This document shows, one piece after another, positions 6,737 through 53,615 of a DNA stretch of 64,000 nt. The notes beneath the pieces are model-generated. The model ran no database searches. It saw nothing but the letters and a program-made list of their open reading frames with translations, and had not been told where the DNA came from. The position numbers and the translations under genes were made by a program. Position 1 is the stretch's first letter, and each line of letters starts with the position of its first letter. The DNA is from Xanthobacter aminoxidans (GTDB lineage: Bacteria > Pseudomonadota > Alphaproteobacteria > Rhizobiales > Xanthobacteraceae), in the NCBI RefSeq assembly GCF_023571765.1, contig NZ_JAMJXC010000013.1, positions 1 to 64,000 of the forward strand, given 5' to 3'.

Positions 6737-7591
6737 ATGACGACATTCGCAAGAATGGCGGCCGTAGCCGCTTTGTCTGCGGCAGCCTTGCTGCCCGAAT
6801 CCCTGCCCGCACACGCCGGCTCCGTGACCCAGCCAGGTGAAACGGTTGGTCTGGCTGCCGGCGCGCCGCTGCCGGAAGGCGTATATGCCGTGAATACGGC
6901 TGACTATGGCTGCCGCAATACTTCGCCCGACAGCACCTGCGTCGGCGTGGATATTCCCGTTCTGGCCTGGGCTACTCCGGTATTCCTGTTCGGCGGGCGG
7001 CTACAGCTTCTGACTGCCGTACCGGTCGTCGGCGTCGGCGTGCAGAACGGAGATTATACTTCCGGCTTTTATAATCCGTTCTTCGCCGCTCAGGTCGCCT
7101 GGGATCTGGGGAACGGCTTCGGCTTCAGCTACATGGCCGGCTTCTATCTCGGCGTGAATACGGGAGTGGCCTTCGATTCAACCTCGTTCAACCAGCGTTT
7201 TGCCCTCAGCTACACGGCGGATGGCTGGAATCTGACGGCAAACGCCATCTGGGGCATCCAGGCGAACGGCGTGAGCAATACGATCAACCCGAACTTCCTG
7301 AACGTCGATCTGACCGCCACGAAGAAATTCGGCAAGTTCGAGATCGGCCCGGTGGCCTATTACTCCACCGACCTGAACAATCCCATCCCATTTTACCAGA
7401 AGCAGAGCCAGTTCGCGATCGGAGGCCTTGTCGGCTATGATTTTGGTCCCGTGATCCTGCAAGCTTATCTCACCACCGACGTCTATGAGCAGAACTACGG
7501 TGGCAACGATACCCGCCTGTGGGGCCGCATCATCGTTCCGCTCTGGAACCCGCCTGCGTCGACCCAGCAGACCGCGCTGCTGCACAAATAG
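6737..7591 (+). CDS. Outer-membrane beta-barrel transporter, phenol MetA-like family
   Basis: A 284-residue exported protein. A cleavable signal peptide (FARMAAVAALSAAALLPESLPAHAG) precedes EGVYAVNTADYGCRNTSPD, then alternating amphipathic strands rich in Gly and aromatics (FNPFFAAQVAWDLGNGFGFSYMAGFYLG is the typical core region; QSQFAIGGLVGYDFGPVILQAY near the end). This is the layout of the 'meta-pathway phenol degradation' transporter-like family thought to form outer-membrane channels. The substrate is unknown. The ATG is preceded by a perfect GGAGG. Confidence 0.8.
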   Translation: MTTFARMAAVAALSAAALLPESLPAHAGSVTQPGETVGLAAGAPLPEGVYAVNTADYGCRNTSPDSTCVGVDIPVLAWATPVFLFGGRLQLLTAVPVVGVGVQNGDYTSGFYNPFFAAQVAWDLGNGFGFSYMAGFYLGVNTGVAFDSTSFNQRFALSYTADGWNLTANAIWGIQANGVSNTINPNFLNVDLTATKKFGKFEIGPVAYYSTDLNNPIPFYQKQSQFAIGGLVGYDFGPVILQAYLTTDVYEQNYGGNDTRLWGRIIVPLWNPPASTQQTALLHK

Positions 7592-8970: not shown

Positions 8971-10827
8971 TCAAGCGCGCAGCAAATCGCCTTCCGGACC
9001 GGACTCCACCGTGCCGCTCACGCTGGAGCCGGCATTTTCGCTCTCGTGGGCGAACTGGGCGAAATAGAATCCGTAGTAGCGACCGCGACGGGCGATCAGC
9101 TCGTCATGGGTGCCGCTCTCCACCACGCGGCCGCCCTCGATCACGCAGATGCGGTCGGCGCGCACCACGGTCTGGAGGCGGTGGGCGATGACGATGGTGG
9201 TGCGCTCGTGGGCCAGTTCCGCCAGCGCCTTCTGCACCTCGGCCTCCGATTCGGAATCGAGGGCGGCGGTGGCCTCGTCGAGGAGCAGGATGGGCGCGTT
9301 CTTCAGGAAGGCGCGGGCGATGGCGATGCGCTGGCGCTGCCCGCCGGAGAGCTGCGCCCCGTGCTCGCCCACGAACGTGTCGTAGCCGTGCTCGAAGCCC
9401 ATGATGAAGGGATGGGCGTGGGCCGCCTTGGCCGCCGCGACGATCTCCTCCTCCGATGCGCCCGGTCGGCCGAAGCCGATGTTCTCCCGGACGGTGCCCG
9501 AGAACAGGTAGACGTCCTGGCTCACCAGGGCCACCGAGGCTCGCACGGAGGTGCGGGAGACGGTGCGGGTGTCGACGCCGTCGATCAGCACGGCGCCGGA
9601 CTGGGGATCGTAGAAGCGCTCGATCAGATTGATGATGGTGGTCTTGCCGCCGCCGGACTGGCCGACCAGCGCAGTCGTCCGGCCGGGCTCCGCCACCAGA
9701 TCGAGGCTGCGCAGCACGTTCTCGCCGGGGCGATAGGCGAACACTACGTCCTTGAACTCCACCCGGCCGCGGGGGCGGGGCAGGGCGCCGACACCGGGGG
9801 AGTCGGCGTCGGGGGCGGGCGCGTCGAGCAGATCGAACAACATGCGCGCGCCCATGACGTGGCTGACCAGCTCCACATGCAGGCGCGACAGCCGCTTGGC
9901 GGGCTCATAGGCCAGCAGCAGGGCGGTGAGCACCGAGAAGAACTGGCCCGGCGAACGGCCGAGCTCGATCACATTGTATCCCGCGTAGAGAATCACGCCG
10001 CCGATGGCGAGGCCGCCCAGAGTCTCCATCAGGGGGCTGGACTTGGCCTGGGTGCGCACGAGGCGGTTGGCGTTGATCTCCACGTCGTCGATGAACTTGT
10101 GGGTGCGCTCCCGCATCACCGGCTCAAGCGTATAGGCCTTCACCGTGCGGATGCCCTGGAACACCTCCATGACGATGGAGGACAGCTTCACGCCCGAGGT
10201 GAAGCCGGTGGTGAAGATGGTCTTGGCCTTCTTGATGAGCTTGCGCGTGCCCAGCACCGCCGCCGGCATCACCACGAGGGCGATGACGGCCAGGAAGGGG
10301 TCCTGTACGAAGGCGACGCCGGCCAGCATCACCAGCGAGAGGAAGTCGCGGCCGATGCTGGTGACGATCAGGTCCAGCGCGCCACGCGCGCCCGCGGCGC
10401 CGGCGGTGAAGCGGGTGGTGATTTCCGCCGTGTGGCGATGGCCGAAATAGGCGGCGTCCTGAAGCATCAGCCGGTCGAAGGCGCGCTTCTGGTTGTCCGC
10501 CACCACCCGGTTGCCGATGCGGGCCATGGTGATGCTCTGCCCGTAGGCCGAGGCGCCCTTGATGATGGAAAGCACCATCACGATACCTGACACTGCCCAC
10601 ACCGCCGCAGGGGTGGGATGCACGAAGATGGCGTTGACGGCATCGTTCATCAGATAGGCGAGGCCGGCCGTGCAGGCGGCCATGGTGCCCATGAAGACGA
10701 AGGCCAGCACATAGCCCTTCCAGTGCTTGCGGCCATCGGACAGGAGGAGGCGCCGCAGGACGGCATTGGTCTCGTCCGAAGAGGGCGGAGGCCCGTGGCG
10801 CTGGGCGGCTTTCGCGTTCATGTACAT
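8971..10827 (-). CDS. ABC exporter, transmembrane and ATPase fused (MsbA-like)
   Basis: A 618-residue half-transporter that would homodimerise in the inner membrane and export a lipid or other hydrophobic substrate. Residues ~35-320 form an ABC type-1 six-helix membrane domain; the C-terminal ~250 residues are the ATPase with Walker A GQSGGGKTT, Q-loop SQDVYLF, signature LSGGQRQR, Walker B ILLLDEATAALD and the switch His in IAHRL. The start at 10827 (MYMNAKAAQ) is chosen because the open frame upstream runs through the tRNA-Cys remnant. Its 5' end lies 164 bases from attL, with divergent orientation to the prophage. Confidence 0.88.
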   Translation of the reverse strand: MYMNAKAAQRHGPPPSSDETNAVLRRLLLSDGRKHWKGYVLAFVFMGTMAACTAGLAYLMNDAVNAIFVHPTPAAVWAVSGIVMVLSIIKGASAYGQSITMARIGNRVVADNQKRAFDRLMLQDAAYFGHRHTAEITTRFTAGAAGARGALDLIVTSIGRDFLSLVMLAGVAFVQDPFLAVIALVVMPAAVLGTRKLIKKAKTIFTTGFTSGVKLSSIVMEVFQGIRTVKAYTLEPVMRERTHKFIDDVEINANRLVRTQAKSSPLMETLGGLAIGGVILYAGYNVIELGRSPGQFFSVLTALLLAYEPAKRLSRLHVELVSHVMGARMLFDLLDAPAPDADSPGVGALPRPRGRVEFKDVVFAYRPGENVLRSLDLVAEPGRTTALVGQSGGGKTTIINLIERFYDPQSGAVLIDGVDTRTVSRTSVRASVALVSQDVYLFSGTVRENIGFGRPGASEEEIVAAAKAAHAHPFIMGFEHGYDTFVGEHGAQLSGGQRQRIAIARAFLKNAPILLLDEATAALDSESEAEVQKALAELAHERTTIVIAHRLQTVVRADRICVIEGGRVVESGTHDELIARRGRYYGFYFAQFAHESENAGSSVSGTVESGPEGDLLRA

Positions 10828-10990: not shown

Positions 10991-11034
10991 TGGAGGCCAC
11001 GGAGGGAATCGAACCCCCGTACACGGATTTGCAG
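10991..11034 (-). pseudogene. 3' half of tRNA-Cys displaced by prophage integration
   Basis: From the anticodon GCA to the encoded CCA this is the last 44 nt of a tRNA-Cys: anticodon 3' stem, variable loop, T-arm (GGGGG TTCGATT CCCTC) and acceptor 3' strand GTGGCCTCCA. No 5' half follows; phage DNA does. It is the host's original 3' end, left at attL when the phage supplied a replacement 3' end at the other junction. The T-stem differs from the functional copy at 53542-53615. Confidence 0.88.
11018..11034. other. attL core (17 bp)
   Basis: CGTACACGGATTTGCAG matches attR at 53569-53585 exactly. It covers the anticodon loop and 3' side of the anticodon stem of tRNA-Cys, the usual crossover site for tyrosine integrases. 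Flanking homology extends imperfectly to 10991 because both copies encode a tRNA 3' end. Confidence 0.9.
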
Positions 11035-11043
11035 GGCGGTGAC

Positions 11044-11063
11044 AGCCGTGACGTCCGAACGTA
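11044..11063 (-). promoter_or_regulatory. Operator-like repeat, copy 8 (degenerate)
   Basis: Read on the minus strand it starts TACGTTCGGACG, sharing the TACGTTC head of the dispersed phage element but diverging in the tail. It lies just inside attL. Weakest member of the family. Confidence 0.35.
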
Positions 11064-11078
11064 CAGTCCGAAAAAGCG

Positions 11079-11123
11079 TATCCGCAAAGCGGCTTACTGC
11101 CAGAGAAGTCGGCTTTGCGGATA
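11079..11123. repeat. 12-bp inverted repeat between attL and the RNA polymerase gene
   Basis: TATCCGCAAAGC and its exact complement GCTTTGCGGATA are separated by 21 bases. The right arm overlaps the operator-like repeat at 11119-11138. It could bind a dimeric regulator such as an excisionase or the phage repressor, or form a leader hairpin in the polymerase transcript. Confidence 0.7.
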
Positions 11124-11138
11124 ATCCGGCTGAACATA
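11119..11138 (-). promoter_or_regulatory. Operator-like repeat, copy 9, upstream of the phage RNA polymerase gene
   Basis: On the minus strand it reads TATGTTCAGCCGGATTATCC, a close match to the dispersed phage element. It is 15 bases upstream of the RNA polymerase start codon, a good position for blocking expression of the lytic polymerase. Confidence 0.6.
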
Positions 11139-11144
11139 CGGATT

Positions 11145-11170
11145 TGGTGACAAATGGACCTAGTGACAAA
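11145..11170 (+). other. Left arm-type GGTGACAAA sites
   Basis: Two direct copies of (T/A)GTGACAAA at 11145-11154 and 11161-11170 on the left side of the crossover mirror a cluster on the right side (53445-53512). Repeats flanking an att core on both sides are what arm-binding sites of a lambda-type integrase look like. The second copy is inside the RNA polymerase coding sequence. Confidence 0.5.
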
Positions 11171-13640
11171 TTCCGTGGCAATCGAGGACGGCAGCCGCGA
11201 GGCCACGCTTGAGCATTTCATGCGTGAGCGTGGCATTGATCGCATGGAAACCCTGGTCTCCAAGGCGGAGGCGAAGGGGCTCGCCAGCGAGACGCCCGGC
11301 GCTATGAATGCAATCCGGTCCCTCATCCAGCCCATGGCCGATGGCGTGGCCGAACTGTTCGCGGCGGAGCGGGCGCGGAAGATGGGCCGCCCGTCCATCG
11401 TCATGTCGAAGATCGGCGAGATGGAGCCCGACCTCGTCGCTTACCTCACCATCAAGGAAACCATCAATTATGCGGCGGGGCGCTGCCCGCTGGGCCGTCT
11501 GACCCACCACATTGGCTCGGTGCTTGAAGACGAGGTGCGCATGGCGGTGTTCGATAACGCCGCGCCGAAGCTCTACCGGACCGTTGACCGCGACGTGAAA
11601 CGCAAATCGTGGGACGCGGTTCACGCTGAATTGATCTTCTCCGCTGCCGCCAAAGCGGCGGACATCGAGCTTCCTCGGTGGAGCCGTGCCGACAAGATGC
11701 AGGTCGGAACCCGCCTTGTGGACATCCTCATCGAGCGCACTGGGCTCATGACGGCCTTTGATGTCCATGAACGCAAGAACAGCACCGTCAAGGTGGTCGA
11801 GATGACGGAGTTCGGCCGCCGGTGGATCGCCGACTTCAACGGCAAGGCCGGCCTTCTCCGCCCCTCGCTCACGCCCACCGTCGTCCCTCCCGTCAAGTGG
11901 GTAGGGACCACCGGGGGTGGCTATTTGACGCACGCAATCCGCAGCTTTTGCGTCGTGAAGCGGACCTACCGTTCCCATGTCGAAGCCCTGAAGGCGGCGC
12001 CAGGGATGCCCGCCATCTACCGGGCCATGAACGCCATCCAGGAAACGCCGTGGGCGATCAATGGGAAGGTCCTCGACGTCATGCTGGAGGCGGACGAGCG
12101 CGGCATCCTCCTTCCTGGGATGCCCCCGCCCAACCCGAACCCGCTTCCCGAACGGCCGGCCGACATCGACACCAACGAGGCCGTGCGGCGGGCCTGGAAG
12201 GAGAAAGCGAAGCTCGTCTATGAGCAGAACGCGGAGGACGAAGGCCGGCGGCTTGAGCTGGCGCAGCTCCTGACGATAGGGAAGGAGTATCGGGGCGACG
12301 CGCAGATTTATTTTCCGCAACAGCTTGACTTTCGCGGAAGAGTCTACTCCATCCCCAACACGCTGCACCCGCAAGGCTCCGATCGTGGCAAGGCTCTTCT
12401 GCACTTCGGCCCCGGCAAGCCCCTCGGAGATACCGGGCTGCGCTGGCTGGGCATCCACGGCGCCAACGAGTTTGGTGTGGACAAGGTCAGCTTCGACGAC
12501 CGCGTCGCCTGGGCCATGGAGCACCGGGAGGCCGCCGCTGCCTGCGCCCGCGATCCGTTCTCGAACCGCTGGTGGACCGAGGCGGACAAGCCTTGGGAGT
12601 TCCTGTCGTGGTGCTTCGAGTTCGGCGCCATCGACTGGAGCAACAGCCCCGAAGCCTTCGTGTCCCACCTCCCCGTCGCCCAGGACGGGAGCTGCAACGG
12701 GCTCCAACATTTCAGCGCCATGCTGCGCGACCCTGTCGGCGGCGCGGCGGTTAACCTCGTGCCCTCCGACGTCCCGCAGGACATCTATCAGCGGGTGGCG
12801 GATCGCGCGGTTGAGCGGTTGGCAAAGGAAGTGGCTGATGCCCGTGCCGAGGGGCGGGAGGACGAGAAGGCTCGCTGGGCTTATGGCTGGCTGGCGTTCG
12901 GCCTCAACCGGAAGATCACCAAGCGCCCGGTCATGGTGCTGCCCTATGGGGGCACGATGACGAGCTGCCTGGAGTACACCCGCGCCGCTGTCCGCGAGCA
13001 GATCAAGGATGGAAAGGGGCACAACTTCGGCGACGAGTTGCCCAAGGCGGAAGCCTATCTGGCCTCCACCATCTGGGCCGCCATCGGCGACGTGGTGGTC
13101 GCGGCGCGGGCCGTTATGTCGTGGCTTCAGAAGGTCGCGCGGGTGGCCGCGAAGGCGGGCGTCCCGCTCCAGTGGACCACCCCGAGCGGCTTCGTGGCGC
13201 ACCAGGAGTACCGCGACTTGCGTCGCCGCCGTGTGGAGAGCCGCCTTCGGGGGGCCGTGGTCAAGGTCTACTATCAAGAAGACACGGACCAGCTCAACGT
13301 CAGCCGGCAGGCCCTGGGCATCTCGCCCAACTTCGTGCACAGCATGGATGCCAGCGCCATGATGCTCACCATCAACAGGTGCCTTGACGATGGCATCGGT
13401 GCCTTCGCCATGATCCACGACAGCTATGGGACCTACGCGGCCGACACCGACCGGCTGTCGCAGCACCTGCGCTCGGCCTTCGTGGATATGTATGAAGAGC
13501 ACGATGTGCTGCGTGAGTTCCGGGATGCCGTGGTCGCGGCCCTTCCTCCAGAGGCGTCGGAGTTCGACATCCCTCCGCTCCCACGGATGGGAACCCTCGA
13601 TCTTCAACGGGTGCGGGAGTCCGCCTACTTCTTTGCTTAG
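11154..13640 (+). CDS. T7-like single-subunit DNA-directed RNA polymerase (gp1)
   Basis: Transcribes the phage middle and late genes from phage-specific promoters. The 828-residue protein is near T7 length (883). Catalytic motifs are all present: DGSCNGLQHFSAMLRD with catalytic Asp ~511, the K-helix RKITKRPVMVLPYGG with Lys ~590 and Tyr ~598, PNFVHSMDASAMM, and HDSYGTY with catalytic Asp ~756. The ATG at 11154 begins MDLVTNSVAIEDG. It is the first gene inside attL, so in the lysogen no early phage promoter lies upstream on the same molecule; in the circular form it would follow the integrase gene. Operator-like repeats and an inverted repeat precede it. Confidence 0.97.
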   Translation: MDLVTNSVAIEDGSREATLEHFMRERGIDRMETLVSKAEAKGLASETPGAMNAIRSLIQPMADGVAELFAAERARKMGRPSIVMSKIGEMEPDLVAYLTIKETINYAAGRCPLGRLTHHIGSVLEDEVRMAVFDNAAPKLYRTVDRDVKRKSWDAVHAELIFSAAAKAADIELPRWSRADKMQVGTRLVDILIERTGLMTAFDVHERKNSTVKVVEMTEFGRRWIADFNGKAGLLRPSLTPTVVPPVKWVGTTGGGYLTHAIRSFCVVKRTYRSHVEALKAAPGMPAIYRAMNAIQETPWAINGKVLDVMLEADERGILLPGMPPPNPNPLPERPADIDTNEAVRRAWKEKAKLVYEQNAEDEGRRLELAQLLTIGKEYRGDAQIYFPQQLDFRGRVYSIPNTLHPQGSDRGKALLHFGPGKPLGDTGLRWLGIHGANEFGVDKVSFDDRVAWAMEHREAAAACARDPFSNRWWTEADKPWEFLSWCFEFGAIDWSNSPEAFVSHLPVAQDGSCNGLQHFSAMLRDPVGGAAVNLVPSDVPQDIYQRVADRAVERLAKEVADARAEGREDEKARWAYGWLAFGLNRKITKRPVMVLPYGGTMTSCLEYTRAAVREQIKDGKGHNFGDELPKAEAYLASTIWAAIGDVVVAARAVMSWLQKVARVAAKAGVPLQWTTPSGFVAHQEYRDLRRRRVESRLRGAVVKVYYQEDTDQLNVSRQALGISPNFVHSMDASAMMLTINRCLDDGIGAFAMIHDSYGTYAADTDRLSQHLRSAFVDMYEEHDVLREFRDAVVAALPPEASEFDIPPLPRMGTLDLQRVRESAYFFA

Positions 13641-13644
13641 AAGG

Positions 13645-13664
13645 TACGTTCAGGCGTAATAAAC
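13645..13664 (+). promoter_or_regulatory. Operator-like repeat, copy 7, after the RNA polymerase gene
   Basis: TACGTTCAGGCGTAATAAAC starts 5 bases after the polymerase stop codon and 10 bases before phage promoter P1. It matches the head of the dispersed element. The site also forms one arm of an imperfect hairpin with CGCTCGAACG. Confidence 0.5.
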
Positions 13665-46299: not shown

Positions 46300-48039
46300 T
46301 TGAACACCCGCACCCACCTCCTATCCTCGACCAGCAAGACCCCCGCTGACCCGCTGAAGGCGGACTTCCGAAACTTCCTCTGGCTCATCTGGCAGCACCT
46401 CAACCTTCCAGAGCCGACCCCGGTCCAGTACGACATCGCCCAGTTCCTCCAGCACGGCCCGCGCCGTCTGGTGATCGAGGCGTTTCGAGGCGTCGGCAAG
46501 AGCTGGATCACCAGCGCCTTCGTGTGCTGGCTCCTCTACTGCAACCCCCAGCTCAAAATCCTGGTGGTGTCGGCCTCCAAGGCCCGCGCCGACCAGTTCT
46601 CCGTCTTCACCCTGCGCCTCATCCGTGAGGTGGAGGTGCTCCGCTTCCTGGAGCCCAAGGAGGGCCAGCGCGAGAGCGCGGTGGCCTTCGACGTCGGACC
46701 GGCCCGGCCTGACCATTCCCCGTCCGTCAAGTCGGTCGGCATCACCGGCCAGCTCACCGGCTCCCGCGCCGACTACATCGTGGCCGACGACATTGAGGTC
46801 GCGAACAACTCCTCGACCCAGGTGCAGCGCGACAAGCTCGCCGAGACCGTCAAGGAGTTTGACGCCGTGCTCAAGCCGGGCGGACGGGTGATCTACCTGG
46901 GCACCCCGCAGTCCGAGCAGTCCCTCTACAACGAGCTTCCGGAGCGCGGATATGTCGCCCGCATCTGGCCGGCCCGCTACCCGACCGCCGACAAGCGCGA
47001 GAAGTATGGCGCCAAGCTCGCCCCGTTCATCGCCACGGCGCTTGACGAGAAGCCTTCGGTAGCAGGTCTCCCCACCGACCCGAAGCGCTTCACCCACGAG
47101 GACCTCCAGGAGCGTGAAGCCTCCTACGGCCGCTCGGGCTTCGCCTTGCAGTTCCAGCTCGACACGTCGCTCTCCGATGCCGACAAGTACCCGCTGAAGC
47201 TCTCCGACCTCATCGTCTTCTCCTGCGACCCATATCGCGGTCCAACTGACCTCGTGTGGGCGTCCGGGCCGGCTCAGGCCATAGACAGCCTTCCGGCCGT
47301 TGGCCTCGCTGGCGACCGCTACCACCAGCCGGCCTGGACCTCCAATCGCTTCGAGGAGTGGGAGGGCTCGGTCATGTTCATCGACCCCTCGGGCCGAGGC
47401 AAGGACGAGACCGCCTATGCCGTGGTCAAGACCCTCCACGGCCGCATGTTCCTCACCGCTGCCGGCGGCTTCCGGGGTGGCTACGACGCCAAGACCTTGG
47501 AGAGCCTCCTCCTGGTGGCCCGGCGCCAGAACGTCAACCTGATCCTCACCGAGCCCAACTATGGCGGTGGCATGTTCGCCGAGCTTCTCAAGGGCGTCTC
47601 GAAGTCTGTCTACCCTGTGCGGATTGAGGACGCCGAGTGGTCCAAGGCCCAGAAGGAAGCCCGGATCATCGACACCATGGAGCCCGTCCTGAACCAGCAC
47701 CGTCTCGTGGTCGCCCCCGAGGTGATCGAGCAGGACTACCGCTCCACCGAGGACTACCGCCCGGAGGACCAGCAGCCTTACCGGCTCTTCTACCAGCTCA
47801 CCCGCCTCACCGCCGACAGGGGCTCCCTGGGCCATGACGACCGCCTGGACGCCCTTGCGGGGGCCGTGGCGTACTGGTCGAAGGTGATGGCACGCGACAC
47901 CGAGAAGGCCGCCCTGGACCAGCGAGAGCGTCTCCTGGACGCCGAGATCGAGCGCTTCATGCAGGGCGCCCTCGGCCGCAAGGCGGACCCCGAGCACTGG
48001 TCCTCCGGACTCATGCAGCGCCGCTTCGGCGGCCGATAG
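46300..48039 (+). CDS. Terminase large subunit, T7 gp19-like
   Basis: ATP-driven packaging motor and nuclease. 579 residues (T7 gp19 586) from TTG 46300. ATPase motifs: Walker A AFRGVGKSWIT, LKILVVSASKARADQFS, and Walker B DYIVADDIEV. The nuclease half shows FIDPSGRGKDETAYAVV (Asp), ILTEPNYGGGMFAELL and GSLGHDDRLDALAGAVAYW (final Asp). Last core gene; the third phage promoter begins 18 bases after its stop. Confidence 0.95.
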   Translation: MNTRTHLLSSTSKTPADPLKADFRNFLWLIWQHLNLPEPTPVQYDIAQFLQHGPRRLVIEAFRGVGKSWITSAFVCWLLYCNPQLKILVVSASKARADQFSVFTLRLIREVEVLRFLEPKEGQRESAVAFDVGPARPDHSPSVKSVGITGQLTGSRADYIVADDIEVANNSSTQVQRDKLAETVKEFDAVLKPGGRVIYLGTPQSEQSLYNELPERGYVARIWPARYPTADKREKYGAKLAPFIATALDEKPSVAGLPTDPKRFTHEDLQEREASYGRSGFALQFQLDTSLSDADKYPLKLSDLIVFSCDPYRGPTDLVWASGPAQAIDSLPAVGLAGDRYHQPAWTSNRFEEWEGSVMFIDPSGRGKDETAYAVVKTLHGRMFLTAAGGFRGGYDAKTLESLLLVARRQNVNLILTEPNYGGGMFAELLKGVSKSVYPVRIEDAEWSKAQKEARIIDTMEPVLNQHRLVVAPEVIEQDYRSTEDYRPEDQQPYRLFYQLTRLTADRGSLGHDDRLDALAGAVAYWSKVMARDTEKAALDQRERLLDAEIERFMQGALGRKADPEHWSSGLMQRRFGGR

Positions 48040-48077: not shown

Positions 48078-48102
48078 GGCAGGGGTGGGAAGGTTTCTCT
48101 TT

Positions 48103-48158
48103 AAGTGTCCCTTCAGGTTCCCTTGAAGGTATCTTGAAGTTCCCCTGAAGGGACACTT
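48103..48158. repeat. 15-bp perfect inverted repeat downstream of P3
   Basis: AAGTGTCCCTTCAGG and its exact complement flank 26 bases that contain further CTTGAAG repeats able to extend the structure. It starts 26 bases after the P3 core. In the T7 plan this is the concatemer junction/pac area, so it may stall the polymerase or mark the genome end; it could instead be an ordinary terminator, though no T run follows. Confidence 0.85.
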
Positions 48159-48189
48159 ACAAGACCACTCCCTAACACAACCCATAACG

Positions 48190-48838: not shown

Positions 48839-48858
48839 TACGTCAGAACGGACTTGAC
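48839..48858 (+). promoter_or_regulatory. Operator-like repeat, copy 1, over the first early promoter
   Basis: TACGTCAGAACGGACTTGAC ends in the TTGAC of the -35 box of the early promoter, and the segment downstream (CTGAACGTA) forms an opposing half. Binding here would block RNA polymerase. Confidence 0.7.
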
Positions 48859-48882
48859 GGCTGAACGTACCAACGCTAGATT
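48854..48882 (+). promoter_or_regulatory. Host sigma70-type early promoter PE1
   Basis: -35 TTGACG at 48854-48859, exactly 17 bases, -10 TAGATT at 48877-48882. It precedes the gene at 48913. The spacer holds GCTGAACGTAC, shared with PE2. Confidence 0.8.
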
Positions 48883-49356: not shown

Positions 49357-49376
49357 TACGTTAGAATGGACTTGAC
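49357..49376 (+). promoter_or_regulatory. Operator-like repeat, copy 2, over early promoter PE2
   Basis: TACGTTAGAATGGACTTGAC ends in the -35 box of PE2. With the downstream GAACGTAC it makes a spaced dyad GTACGTT...AACGTAC. Confidence 0.7.
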
Positions 49377-49400
49377 GGCTGAACGTACATCGTCTAAGGT
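49372..49400 (+). promoter_or_regulatory. Host sigma70-type early promoter PE2
   Basis: -35 TTGACG at 49372-49377, 17-base spacer, -10 TAAGGT at 49395-49400. Shares the 16-base block ACTTGACGGCTGAACG with PE1, so the two are duplicated promoters. Transcription would start near 49407 and enter the structured region that follows. Confidence 0.8.
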
Positions 49401-49406
49401 CCAAAT

Positions 49407-49729
49407 CACCAGCTAGGGCGGCAGCCCCGAGGGCCTTGATAGAGGCTCCACCGCAAGGTGGAGTAGAGGCGAGGCCCTCCAGATTGCCACCAGGGCTCCA
49501 CCGCAAGGTGGAGTGGAGGCAAGGCACCCGGTCCCACGGGCAAGCAAATAGTGGGGCGGCATCCTGCACAACGTCGAATGGCGAAGGGCGAGGGGTGCGG
49601 ACGCGACAGGGCATTGACCATGCGGAGCCTGCAAGTCGCGTGAAGGAGCAAGGGGGCGGTGCAATGCGGCCCCCATCGCTTCCTTGGCGCCTTCGGGCGC
49701 TTCCGAAGGCCACACAGGGGCGCCTGTGA
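49407..49729 (+). ncRNA. Candidate structured phage RNA with tetraloop hairpins
   Basis: Directly behind PE2. GAGGGCCT (49429-49436) pairs with AGGCCCTC (49472-49479) around CTCCACC-GCAA-GGTGGAG (49446-49463). The same GCAA hairpin recurs at 49496-49513, set in TTGCC/GGCAA and CCA/TGG flanks. Then a three-part helix CGCGAC/GTCGCG, CAGG/CCTG, GCAT/ATGC (49602-49640); GGGGGC/GCCCCC (49652-49674); GCGCC-TTCG-GGCGC (49687-49700); CACAGG-GGCG-CCTGTG (49713-49728). GNRA and UUCG caps on perfect stems, and two nearly identical modules 50 bases apart, argue for selection on RNA structure. An open frame on this strand (49436-49729) has no coding character. The RNA's function and 3' end are unknown. 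Confidence 0.7.
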
Positions 49730-49749
49730 TACGTTCAAGCGGATCATCC
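49730..49749 (+). promoter_or_regulatory. Operator-like repeat, copy 3
   Basis: TACGTTCAAGCGGATCATCC, close to the family consensus, directly after the last ncRNA hairpin and 56 bases before the next gene. Confidence 0.7.
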
Positions 49750-49805
49750 GTGCGAGCGAACCGCGCCGCTGTGTGGCCTCCGCAAGCGATTTAGGAGGCT
49801 TGAAA

Positions 49806-50027
49806 ATGGCTTACGAAAACTCCGACAACGGCGCCCATCTGGGCGGGTACACGGAAGAATATATGGCGGAGCCGGATGGCCCCTTTGCCGCCCTCCATAT
49901 CAGCGTCAAGCCGGGGACGGATTTCGACACGTGCTTCCGTGCATTCGACCACGACAACCAAGAATATATCTGGATTAAGGGATGGCGGCGGGATTTCACG
50001 GCCATTGAAGACTGTCTGGAGGCTTGA
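49806..50027 (+). CDS. Small early phage protein
   Basis: A 73-residue protein (MAYENSDNGAHLGGYTEEYMAEPDGPFAALHISV...) ending WRRDFTAIEDCLEA. Start chosen at ATG 49806, preceded by a perfect AGGAGG nine bases upstream; the longer open frame lies in the ncRNA region. Acidic and aromatic-rich, unknown function. Confidence 0.65.
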   Translation: MAYENSDNGAHLGGYTEEYMAEPDGPFAALHISVKPGTDFDTCFRAFDHDNQEYIWIKGWRRDFTAIEDCLEA

Positions 50028-50029
50028 AA

Positions 50030-50137
50030 ATGTACCCGACAAATCCAGCAACCGCCTTCGCCATGGCGACAATCATGCCCATCGCCTTCACCCTGGCGGT
50101 GGTGGTCTGCACCTATCGTGCCATGCGGATCATGTGA
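50030..50137 (+). CDS. Very small membrane protein
   Basis: A 35-residue peptide MYPTNPATAFAMATIMPIAF..., with one transmembrane helix (ATIMPIAFTLAVVVCTY). The start is preceded by GGAGGCTTGAAA, the same ribosome-binding block as at 49806, which strongly supports translation. Could be an inner-membrane superinfection-exclusion peptide; this is inference. Confidence 0.6.
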   Translation: MYPTNPATAFAMATIMPIAFTLAVVVCTYRAMRIM

Positions 50138-50998: not shown

Positions 50999-51070
50999 CC
51001 ATGGAAGGCGCCGCTATGCGCCCGCATCCGCTATCCGGGCAAAAGCCCCATCCTATTCGGCACGACAACC

Positions 51071-51199
51071 GTGCGGCACGACGCGCCATTGCATGAGGTG
51101 CAAGCGGCTCTGGTCGCCAACATCGACGATTGCTTGCCGGGTGGGTGGGAAATCCTCTCACTGCTTCCCGGCGCCATCGTCTTCGTGCCGGAGGAATAG
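51071..51199 (+). CDS. Small phage protein or readthrough extension
   Basis: From GTG 51071 a 42-residue protein with IDDCLPGGWEILSLLPGAIVFVPEE at its end. The coding-like sequence actually extends upstream (IRYPGKSPILFGTTTV) without a normal start and in the same frame as the preceding gene. Either a non-canonical start, readthrough of TGA 50996-50998, or a decayed gene. Confidence 0.4.
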   Translation: MRHDAPLHEVQAALVANIDDCLPGGWEILSLLPGAIVFVPEE

Positions 51200-51241
51200 C
51201 CGCAATCTCAAGGGGCGAGGTGTGTCCTTGCCCCTTCGGAG

Positions 51242-51261
51242 TACGGCTGAACGGATTATCC
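51242..51261 (+). promoter_or_regulatory. Operator-like repeat, copy 5
   Basis: TACGGCTGAACGGATTATCC in the gap before the gene at 51275, 13 bases from its start codon. Confidence 0.6.
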
Positions 51262-51274
51262 GGGAGAACGAACT

Positions 51275-51565
51275 ATGTCTGCAACCGCCTTCGATCCGGC
51301 GCCGCCGGTCAACTGCCGCTATGGGGCGCCCATGGGCCGCCGAAGCAACGCCTATCTTGAAACTTGCGCCGGCCGGCTCCGGCTGGTCCGCGTCCCTCTC
51401 GATGCCGGGGGCTATGACAAGGGCGGGGCCTATTGGGGCCTGGGCGAGCCGCTTTATTGCGTCGCCGACCAGGACGGGAACACGGCTTACCTTCGGGCGA
51501 AGAGCCGGGAATATGCGAAATCCGTCATCCTGGCCGACTGGCCCGAAGCGGCGTTTTACAGGTGA
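51275..51565 (+). CDS. Early phage protein, unknown conserved type
   Basis: A 96-residue protein (MSATAFDPAPPVNCRYGAPMGRRSNAYLE...). The VNCRYGAPMGR start and GAYWGLGEPLYCVADQDG centre give the impression of a conserved small family common on phages and plasmids, and the C-terminus is helical (RAKSREYAKSVILADWP). I cannot name its role. Start has GGGAGAACGAACT upstream. Confidence 0.65.
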   Translation: MSATAFDPAPPVNCRYGAPMGRRSNAYLETCAGRLRLVRVPLDAGGYDKGGAYWGLGEPLYCVADQDGNTAYLRAKSREYAKSVILADWPEAAFYR

Positions 51566-52043: not shown

Positions 52044-52058
52044 ATGGAGATGGATGAA

Positions 52059-52436
52059 ATGGCTGACCGTACTTTGACCGAACGTGAGGCCAAGGCCCTC
52101 ACCACCCTGACGACGGCGCTGGAAGCGCTGCACGACGTCCACGATGAAATGACCATCCGGACGGCGATCACCTTCCTGCGCCTCGCACTGGACCAAGGGA
52201 CCACGCAAAGCGATTTGGCTCGGTACTACGGATGGCCGAAGACCTCCGTCAACCGGAACATCAAGCTCCTACAGGACAAGGGGGTTCGAGGAAACCCAGG
52301 CTTGGGGCTTCTCGACCTCCGTGCCGATGACGTTGACGAGCGAGCAAAGCCCGTTGGCGTTAGCCCCAAGGGTGCGAGGCTCATACGCACCCTGGACCAC
52401 ATACTCTCGGGAGTAACAGAAGGTGGCAATTCGTGA
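52059..52436 (+). CDS. MarR-like winged-helix regulator, candidate phage repressor
   Basis: A 125-residue protein (MADRTLTEREAKALTTL). Residues ~30-90 form a winged helix: DEMTIRTAITFLRLALDQGTTQSDLARYYGWPKTSVNRNIKLLQDKG, with recognition helix PKTSVNRNIKLLQD, then the wing (GNPGLGLLDLR) and a last helix ARLIRTLDHIL. Its place next to the integrase and an operator-like repeat at its own start make it the best candidate for the immunity repressor. Upstream in-frame ATGs at 52044 and 52050 are possible; 52059 has the better ribosome-binding spacing. Its 3' end overlaps the integrase start. Confidence 0.75.
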   Translation: MADRTLTEREAKALTTLTTALEALHDVHDEMTIRTAITFLRLALDQGTTQSDLARYYGWPKTSVNRNIKLLQDKGVRGNPGLGLLDLRADDVDERAKPVGVSPKGARLIRTLDHILSGVTEGGNS

Positions 52437-53466
52437 GAAGGGCGGGAAATTTCTCGCCGACTTCATGGTGGACGGGACGCGCTACCGTGAGGTGTTCGGT
52501 TCGCGTCCGGAGGCGGAGGCGTGGGAGCTGAAATGCCGCGCCGCGCTCAAGCTGGGCCAGCCGGTGCCCCGGAAGGAGTTCAACCCGGCTGTCGCGGCGG
52601 GAGGTCTCCGCACAATGCGGGGGCTCATGGAGCACGTTTGCAAGGTCCACTGGAAGGACGCCAAGTCGGCGGCCGATCAGTTGCGAAACGCGAAGCGCTT
52701 CGTGGACTTCGTGGGCGGCAACATCCCGCCGGCCTCCGCCTTCACGGTGGAGAACCTGGGCGCCTTCGTCGAGATGCTGAAGACCTCGGGATGCTCGAAT
52801 GGCACCGTCAACCGCTATCTATCGAACGTCTCGAAGATGGCGAGCGTGGCGCTGAAGGCGGACCGGATCACCAAGATGCCGGAAATCCCCTGGCAGAAGG
52901 AGGGGCCGGGCCGCACCATCGCTTTCACGCGGGACGAGGTGGAAGCGATCATCAAGCTCGCGACCCGCTGGGGCTATCAGCGGGAGGCGGATATGTTCCA
53001 GTTCCTCATAGACACGGGCTGTCGCCTGGGGGAGCTGACCAAGGTCCGGTGGGGGGACTTCAACGCCGACCTCACGGCCGTGACGTTCGCTCGTGACATC
53101 ACCAAGACGTCGCATGACCGGACCATTCCGCTCTTCCCCACCACCACGGAAGTGATGAAGCGATGCCGCCTCGTCACGGGTGACCTGGAGCGCCCCTTCC
53201 AGGACACTTCACCGGCCCGGCTGCGGAAGGTGTGGTACCGCATAAAGGAGAAACTGAAGCTCCCGGATGAAACCACAATCCACACCCTCCGCCACACCCG
53301 GTGCACGTGGTTTGCTCTGGAGGGGTGGGACTTCTGGCGCATCCAGAAATGGATGGGGCATTCGTCCCTTGCGACAACTCGCCGCTACACGAACTTGGTG
53401 CCTAATGACCTCGACGCCATGGTCCACGGGCGGGACGACTCGCATTTGTCACCGGATCAGCGGTGA
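52423..53466 (+). CDS. Tyrosine recombinase (phage integrase)
   Basis: Integrates and excises the prophage at tRNA-Cys. 347 residues from GTG 52423. N-terminal arm-binding region (MAIREKGGKFLADFMVDGTRYREVF), a SAM-like core-binding domain (~65-155), and the catalytic domain with Arg ~201 (TGCRLGELTKVRW), Lys in the TKTSHDR hairpin, H-x-x-R at ~287-290 (HTLRHTR), His ~313 (GHSSLATT) and nucleophile Tyr ~322 (RRYTNL). 102 bases from attR; arm-type repeats lie between. Confidence 0.97.
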   Translation: MAIREKGGKFLADFMVDGTRYREVFGSRPEAEAWELKCRAALKLGQPVPRKEFNPAVAAGGLRTMRGLMEHVCKVHWKDAKSAADQLRNAKRFVDFVGGNIPPASAFTVENLGAFVEMLKTSGCSNGTVNRYLSNVSKMASVALKADRITKMPEIPWQKEGPGRTIAFTRDEVEAIIKLATRWGYQREADMFQFLIDTGCRLGELTKVRWGDFNADLTAVTFARDITKTSHDRTIPLFPTTTEVMKRCRLVTGDLERPFQDTSPARLRKVWYRIKEKLKLPDETTIHTLRHTRCTWFALEGWDFWRIQKWMGHSSLATTRRYTNLVPNDLDAMVHGRDDSHLSPDQR

Positions 53467-53541: not shown

Positions 53542-53615
53542 TGGAGGCCACGGCCAGAATCGAACTGGCGTACACGGATTTGCAGTCCGCTGCGTAACCA
53601 CTCCGCCACGTGGCC
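53542..53615 (-). tRNA. tRNA-Cys (GCA), reconstituted at attR
   Basis: Minus-strand cloverleaf of 74 nt with encoded CCA: acceptor GGCCACG/CGTGGCC, anticodon loop CTGCAAA giving GCA, T-arm GCCAG TTCGATT CTGGC. The 5' half (53586-53615) is host sequence; the 3' part up to 53585 came with the phage, so the gene stays functional after integration. Confidence 0.95.
53569..53585. other. attR core (17 bp)
   Basis: CGTACACGGATTTGCAG, identical to attL at 11018-11034, within the anticodon arm of the intact tRNA-Cys. Confidence 0.9.

Follow-up and report, generated by a model that had tools for sequence, protein, structure and literature searches.

Prophage setting and the early region

The window, the complete stretch of 64,000 nt from Xanthobacter aminoxidans that was analyzed, carries a temperate T7-like prophage. 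In addition to the T7-type RNA polymerase (Table 1), nine further proteins could be matched to phage replication, head, tail and terminase families, namely a ssDNA-binding protein, an endonuclease, a primase/helicase, a DNA polymerase, a head-tail adaptor, a major head protein, two tail proteins and the large terminase. Past the terminase gene, the order is early region, MarR-like gene, integrase and tRNA-Cys. The window has two copies of a 17-base sequence, CGTACACGGATTTGCAG, one at 11018 and one at 53569, the latter within the tRNA, and these copies likely mark the attachment sites. The terminase matched 2617 phage records, with that of Mesorhizobium phage Lo5R7ANS as the best match (64% identity), and among 397 genomes of the order, five, the own genome included, contain relatives at E 1e-60 or better. 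Shortly past the terminase gene, at 48102-48159, lies a 27-nt inverted repeat with a 4-nt gap, possibly an end-of-late-transcript or packaging element.

An earlier note on this DNA placed a structured RNA behind a phage early promoter of the sigma70 type, and the T7-like context bears out this placement. The -35 hexamer TTGACG of the promoter is good, but the -10 hexamer TAAGGT is weak and stayed below the threshold of the promoter scan, which on the + strand listed the twin promoter alone (shuffles yielded 1.0 per region). Both hexamers are unchanged in the only homologue of the region, found in Xanthobacter sp. NM-59 and referred to here as the sister. The gene-free stretch, put at ~320 nt before, is indeed untranslated, but it extends over ~400 nt up to the start codon of the first early gene. 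That this stretch codes for protein is extremely unlikely, because the proposed reading frame, 49436-49729, is broken in the sister. A + frame of 107 codons (49406-49726) is open in the window, long - frames occur in the GC-rich DNA, and in both phages the frame of 49659 continues without a stop into the first gene; against this, sister indels, some not multiples of three, also break the frame 49406-49726.

For the 73-aa protein of the first early gene, no PHROGs or Pfam match was obtained at E 0.1. The gene is flanked by two copies of GGAGGCTTGAAAATG, at 49794 and 50018, and in the sister the leader joins directly to the equivalent of 50030-50137. Further downstream, ahead of the gene at 51275, the stretch 51051-51250 is strongly structured (z -5.6) and includes an AAGGGGC/GCCCCTT hairpin.

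The early region also contains a palindrome-like DNA motif of ~32 bp. Five copies were found on the + strand, at 48839, 49357, 49730, 50338 and 51242 (0 in 100 shuffles), and weaker copies near 11050-11139 (11050, 11108) and at 13645 flank the RNA polymerase gene. The motif is thus placed at both early promoters, in the leader, ahead of early genes and next to the gene for RNA polymerase, and it may be a repressor operator, recognized by the MarR-like regulator. For LUZ100-like phages, MarR sites at the polymerase promoter are reported as a proposal in PMC10134795.

Table 1. Positions of the features in the window and, where a contig handle is given, in related phages
Feature	Position	Strand	Remarks
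T7-type RNA polymerase	11154..13640	+	Pfam E 1.5e-116; PHROGs E 1.2e-256
Large terminase	46300-48039		phage family match
Twin early promoter	48854-48882	+	listed by promoter scan
~32-bp palindrome-like motif	49357..49388	+	overlaps -35 of early promoter
Sigma70-type early promoter, TTGACG-17-TAAGGT	49372..49400	+	assigned by sequence; identical in sister
Untranslated early leader, ~400 nt	49407..49805	+	putative start, from promoter
Hairpin GGGC-GGCA-GCCC, 4 bp	49416..49427	+	identical in sister
Helix GAGGGCCT/AGGCCCTC	49429..49479	+	around first GCAA hairpin
First CTCCACC-GCAA-GGTGGAG hairpin	49446..49463	+	absent from sister
Second CTCCACC-GCAA-GGTGGAG hairpin	49496..49513	+	absent from sister
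Domain ACGCGAC...GTCGCGT	49601..49641	+	identical in sister
Hairpin GGGGGC/GCCCCC	49652..49674	+	identical in sister
Hairpin GCGCC-UUCG-GGCGC	49687..49700	+	inside 21-nt insert, absent from sister
Long stem, 26-nt arms 49698-49723/49763-49788, 88% complementary	49698..49788	+	directly 5' of Shine-Dalgarno
Hairpin CACAGG-GGCG-CCTGTG	49713..49728	+	loop CGCC in sister
~32-bp motif, third copy	49730..49761	+	within long stem
Shine-Dalgarno AGGAGG of first gene downstream	49793..49798	+	assigned by sequence
First early gene past leader, 73 aa	49806..50027	+	ATG 49806; absent from sister
MarR-like regulator of prophage	52044..52436	+
Integrase	52423..53466	+
Family-B leader	L009 5788-6138
Family-B leader	L010 8975-9330
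Family-B leader	L012 3268-3590
Family-B leader	L014 8574-8896
Family-B leader	L017 8920-9310
Exact boxA	L011:8704
Exact boxA	L015:8664
Exact boxA	L016:5193
Exact boxA	L093:709
Exact boxA	L094:647
Exact boxA	L117:2395	-
Exact boxA	L120:523

Folding of the leader and comparison with the sister

The leader consists of 36% G and 29% C and folds strongly. For 49405-49800 a folding z-score of -6.4 was obtained, with none of 100 shuffles equally good. Among 298 segments of 200 nt between 8901 and 53600, the one at 49401 (z -4.8) ranked third and the one at 49701 seventh, and the one between them, at 49551, was ordinary (z -0.8). The two near-identical GCAA modules are present as described before: the hairpins lie exactly 50 bases apart and the 32-nt copies around them are 94% identical. 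CTCCACCNNNNGGTGGAG has two sites in the 5.8-Mb genome, both in the leader, and with the exact stems confined to these two copies a host mobile or REP-like palindromic element was rejected. The six perfect stem-loops counted earlier are likewise present, and the longer stems exceed chance. Between 49405 and 49730, three non-overlapping perfect stems of at least 7 bp (both GCAA hairpins and the 8-bp stem 49689-49710, which the earlier note had not named) were found versus a mean of 0.2, a number that 0 of 1000 dinucleotide shuffles reached, and four stems of at least 6 bp had a P of 0.003 in such shuffles; the count at 5 bp or more, four versus 2.2 in shuffles, is not unusual (P 0.14). The six cannot all coexist, because the UUCG hairpin (5 bp) overlaps the 8-bp stem and the GGCG hairpin shares bases with the 26-nt arms, which makes the members of each pair mutually exclusive.

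These arms form the long stem next to the Shine-Dalgarno sequence, a candidate RNase III-type processing stem, although this 3' palindrome consists partly of the ~32-bp DNA motif. For the 150 nt that precede the first early gene, the z-score was -3.46 (-3.58 when shifted by one base), compared to -2.96 for the corresponding part of the sister. Bases 49689-49694 of the UUCG insert are predicted to pair with 49794-49799, at the Shine-Dalgarno sequence, with a probability of about 0.55, and in the sister, which is without this insert, the Shine-Dalgarno sequence is predicted to be freer at most of its bases. According to this folding model, the pairing could damp translation.

In an Rfam scan at the curated threshold, no match was obtained for the leader; four tRNAs were the only matches in the window, and a single sub-threshold match (E 3.8) lay outside the leader. 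Dense folding and stable tetraloops would suit a free RNA of ~320 nt acting as a regulatory RNA, RNase decoy or defence RNA, as proposed earlier. However, the scan detected no terminator-like site in the leader, the Shine-Dalgarno sequence and a gene follow directly, and the main hairpins are missing from the sister; none of the observations points to a decoy or defence role. Because of the missing Rfam match and terminator-like site, a cis-acting mRNA leader is likelier, and a free RNA is considered very unlikely.

The sister leader (76% identity) was the only homologue in a search of 101 genomes, comprising the own genome and relatives, 13 of them from the same genus. Its ends are strongly conserved, with 32 of 32 positions identical in 49405-49436 and 98% identity (192/196, 23 gap columns) in 49594-49812. 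The middle part, 49437-49593, is only 74% identical (78/105) with 78 gap columns, compared to 85-100% identity for the early proteins common to both phages. Where the 21-nt UUCG insert is absent, the sister carries another insert of 25 nt. The helix around the first GCAA hairpin is retained; one of its G-C pairs is G-U in the sister, and the apical part differs. At 49714-49727, the sister has the reverse complement of CAGGGGCGCCTG, which amounts to a micro-inversion of 12 bp at a palindrome. As a whole, the sister leader folds with a z-score of -1.1, and 12 of 100 shuffles were equally good.

No match to the leader was found by blastn in 50,697 phage records at E 1e-5, nor with two exact leader patterns in IMG/VR viral contigs, and two early proteins, followed through their relatives, led to no leader homologue. 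A further genome of the order, G088, shares 22 bases with the leader, a match that was rejected as probable chance: when 297 genomes were searched, a draw to which the sister genome did not belong, G088 was one of 15 genomes other than the own one with matches at E 0.01 or better, and the other 14 had theirs in short stretches from scattered parts of the query.

Compensatory changes in the stems, named earlier as possible support, did not exceed chance. On the consensus structure of the two sequences, pairing is kept in all 202 countable cells and a change on both sides is seen in two pairs, but 116 of 500 shuffles were equally good, so that two sequences yield no covariation. Substitutions fell in 7 of 194 paired versus 24 of 139 unpaired columns of this consensus, a structure that was fitted to both sequences. 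When the structure of the window alone was used, substitutions in the variable segment ignored pairing (15/67 paired versus 12/43 unpaired, p 0.65), and over the whole leader 85 pairs were unchanged, 5 changed and kept, 7 broken and 37 lost to gaps. The structure of the sister alone gave 18/72 paired versus 9/38 unpaired (p 1.0), with 83 pairs unchanged, 6 changed and kept, 5 broken and 17 lost to gaps. At the conserved ends, window and sister are too similar for a pairing test. Since the substitutions in the middle part ignore pairing in the single-sequence structures, selection for structure in the GCAA part is unsupported, and the view of the repeated GCAA module as a selected motif finds no support either, the module being absent from the only homologue. 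From this alignment, the GCAA hairpins look like a local, lineage-specific change and not like the core of a conserved new RNA.

The divergence of the middle part and the indifference of its substitutions to pairing would also be expected of an unconstrained spacer, in which hairpins arise from template switching during replication and duplication and the structure has no function. In line with this, the hairpins differ between the phages as whole inserts, and the CAGG-GGCG-CCTG hairpin by exact inversion. The excess of perfect stems of at least 7 bp argues against it, as do the structured leaders of related phages described below, one family of which shows covariation, and that a phage keeps 400 untranslated bases would suggest a use. 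A functionless spacer is rated as rather unlikely.

Leaders and boxA sites in related phages

Related phages were collected via their terminase, and several were found to have long untranslated leaders at the equivalent place. In 17 leaders, the median z-score of the 150 nt preceding the first early gene was -2.77, compared to an average of -0.53 over 192 windows of background (p 1.5e-4), and 10 of the 17, with window and sister on the structured side, were at -2 or below versus 13% of the background windows; the 17 leaders are not independent and represent about nine independent groups. The remaining seven were RHEph21 (0.42), TRX32-1 (0.14), Pasto (1.12), L017 (-0.38), L009 (-1.37), L018 (-1.49) and L010 (-1.78), which include three of four family-B leaders (see below). 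In the number of pairs of the longest hairpin, the leaders did not differ from the background (p 0.25).

Two families of leaders could be distinguished. Family A consists of L011, L015, L016 and Lo5R7ANS (L093), to which L117 and L115 were added later; L118, though found by the same pattern as the latter two, was unconvincing as a member. At the 3' end of this family, a GCGGTGCC/GGTGCCGC hairpin and a long stem stand before the start codon. Family B (L009, L010, L012, L014 and L017/L090) is a conserved structured leader of ~300 nt in T7-like phages of rhizobia and from IMG/VR. Over four sequences, from which the structure itself was derived, 10 pairs were changed on both sides versus 3.8 in shuffles (0/500), five of them in the terminal stem. 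An Rfam scan of nine leader loci, including L010, L014 and L017 of family B, gave no leader match at the gathering threshold. Profile and sequence searches connected the window leader neither with the boxA leaders nor with the L010/L017 family, so that homology to them was rejected.

Some further elements were observed in these contigs. A look-alike, GGGCNTTGACCAT, is present in L017. In the early region of the same contig, a T7-like prophage of Mesorhizobium loti, a type II hammerhead ribozyme was identified at 9735-9800 (+) with 49.6 bits (gathering 37). L010 (about 10110-10195) and L014 (about 9700-9775) share a structured-looking CTAGTTCCCTGAGCGCATCGG...GCTCGGGCAAACC past an early gene, for which no Rfam match was found.

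Exact rRNA-type boxA sequences (TGYTCTTTRACA) were found at 10 sites in 817,522 bases, some contigs being included twice, versus 0.36 expected. Each of the ten sits in an early leader and has the sense orientation; three come from duplicate contigs, which leaves L011, L015, L016, Lo5R7ANS, LUZ100, L117 and RHEph21. A boxA with one mismatch is present in T7 (L119) at 812 (CGCTCTTTAACA), between A3 and gene 0.3, in TRX32-1 (L123) at 7046, ahead of a CDS at 7308, and in Bordetella phage BB8 (L124) at 2260, ahead of a CDS at 2402, the latter two with other annotated genes upstream. The element is not universal: of 27 zones that follow a terminase or a genome start, five had it when at most one mismatch was allowed, and no boxA was found in Pasto and the examined stretch of RHEph01, or in the family-B leaders (best score 1.7). 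In the leaders of window and sister, the best boxA score was -2.0, compared to 19.8-23.6 at nine phage sites, and in the zone from 48851 it was 0.1, although the boxA of this host may read differently. In a search for the host rRNA boxA, TGYTCTTTGACA was not found in the own genome (G000), G001 and G003, with one looser match in G001 that was not placeable at an rRNA operon; a 16S rRNA match was absent in these three genomes, G012 and G354, and in the control it was found in 9 of 14 genomes.

A 51-base query around the T7 boxA matched 855 phage records at E 10 or better, comprising T7 copies and weak matches to other kinds of phages, and only weak matches in E. coli genomes. In an open-access search for boxA together with T7, the passages obtained make no mention of a boxA in the T7 leader. 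In LUZ100 (L094), a long stem starting with GGTGGATGCCT lies 3' of the boxA at about 715-785; this stem may resemble the 5' end of 23S rRNA. Control of elongation in early leaders is plausible for the group, because some positional equivalents carry a boxA. Such a boxA need not mean antitermination, however, because at rRNA the main role of the Nus factors is RNA folding, as the same passages state.

Proposed role of the leader

The leader is real and unusually structured, and it is one among several dissimilar leaders that T7-like phages have at this place. The phage encodes a T7-type RNA polymerase, its leader lies between a promoter that is host-type by sequence and the first early gene, and a strong stem stands just before the first Shine-Dalgarno sequence in both window and sister. 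T7 similarly has an untranslated stretch between its host promoters (A3) and the first early gene (0.3), with a strong stem ~14 nt before the start codon (z -2.6). In contrast to the window phage, T7 is lytic and has the boxA-like sequence, and no sequence similarity between the two leaders was detected. LUZ100 is T7-like with temperate features, and its early host promoters were mapped by ONT-cappable-seq (PMC10134795). It resembles the window phage in its tandem host promoters, in the early order of P1 and P2 host promoters, small genes, MarR, integrase, RNA polymerase, ssDNA-binding protein and endonuclease, in a structured leader past P2 (z -4.6), and in a MarR-like regulator that is 31% identical to that of the window over 87 aa, but its leader has an exact boxA and another stem, and the searches that were run reported no sequence similarity to the window leader. 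In Lo5R7ANS and its IMG/VR relatives, a ~500-nt leader also ends in a long stem before the gene, but it carries a boxA and its profile does not match the window.

The put RNA of HK022 consists of two stem-loops that head the early transcript and bind the host elongation complex in cis. The window leader has two similar stem-loop modules directly behind its early promoter, and a boxA-independent antitermination can be pictured in which the folded 5' RNA acts in the same way and the polymerase crosses the untranslated stretch and the early region. That the positional equivalents in LUZ100, Lo5R7ANS, RHEph21 and IMG/VR phages carry a rRNA-type boxA would fit such a role. However, the sister lacks both modules and still keeps most of its early region, no covariation was detected, the leader had no counterpart among the phage records searched, and a clear boxA is restricted to a minority of the zones. 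Antitermination of this kind is considered unlikely. The wider proposal, that structured leaders of temperate T7-like phages modify the host elongation complex, through boxA in some and through a boxA-free put-like antiterminator of independent origin in the Xanthobacter lineage, is a speculative one and, if anything, slightly less probable still. A cis role in early transcription in the general sense, as the earlier note had suggested, is reasonable given the structured leaders of relatives, the covariation in one family and the boxA in some.

The region is best explained as a cis-acting, perhaps RNase-processed 5' leader of the early operon with lineage-specific hairpins in a temperate T7-like prophage, to which a probability of about 0.6 is assigned. 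Once a repressor leaves the motif that overlaps the -35, host RNA polymerase would start near 49407 and transcribe the leader before reaching the first early gene, and the leader would act in cis. The long stem before the Shine-Dalgarno sequence is most likely a processing or stabilizing element, placed as the leader before T7 gene 0.3 is. The folded leader would probably be cut or capped at this terminal stem, with the Shine-Dalgarno sequence presented. A G-rich leader is ill suited to Rho loading, and the 5' hairpins may protect the RNA, which is untranslated here, against ribonucleases and Rho. The GCAA and UUCG hairpins, gained in this lineage or lost in the sister, would thicken the structure and be dispensable. 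RNase III cuts the early RNAs of T7 (PMC4858673), and by analogy it may process this leader as well.

The hairpins of the window matter less than the comparison across phages, since they look like lineage-specific changes. The leaders that several temperate T7-like phages have at this place are unrelated to one another; many are structured, and some carry a rRNA-type boxA. Whether T7-like phages borrow the ribosomal transcription machinery of their host for takeover or for leaving lysogeny thus becomes a testable question.
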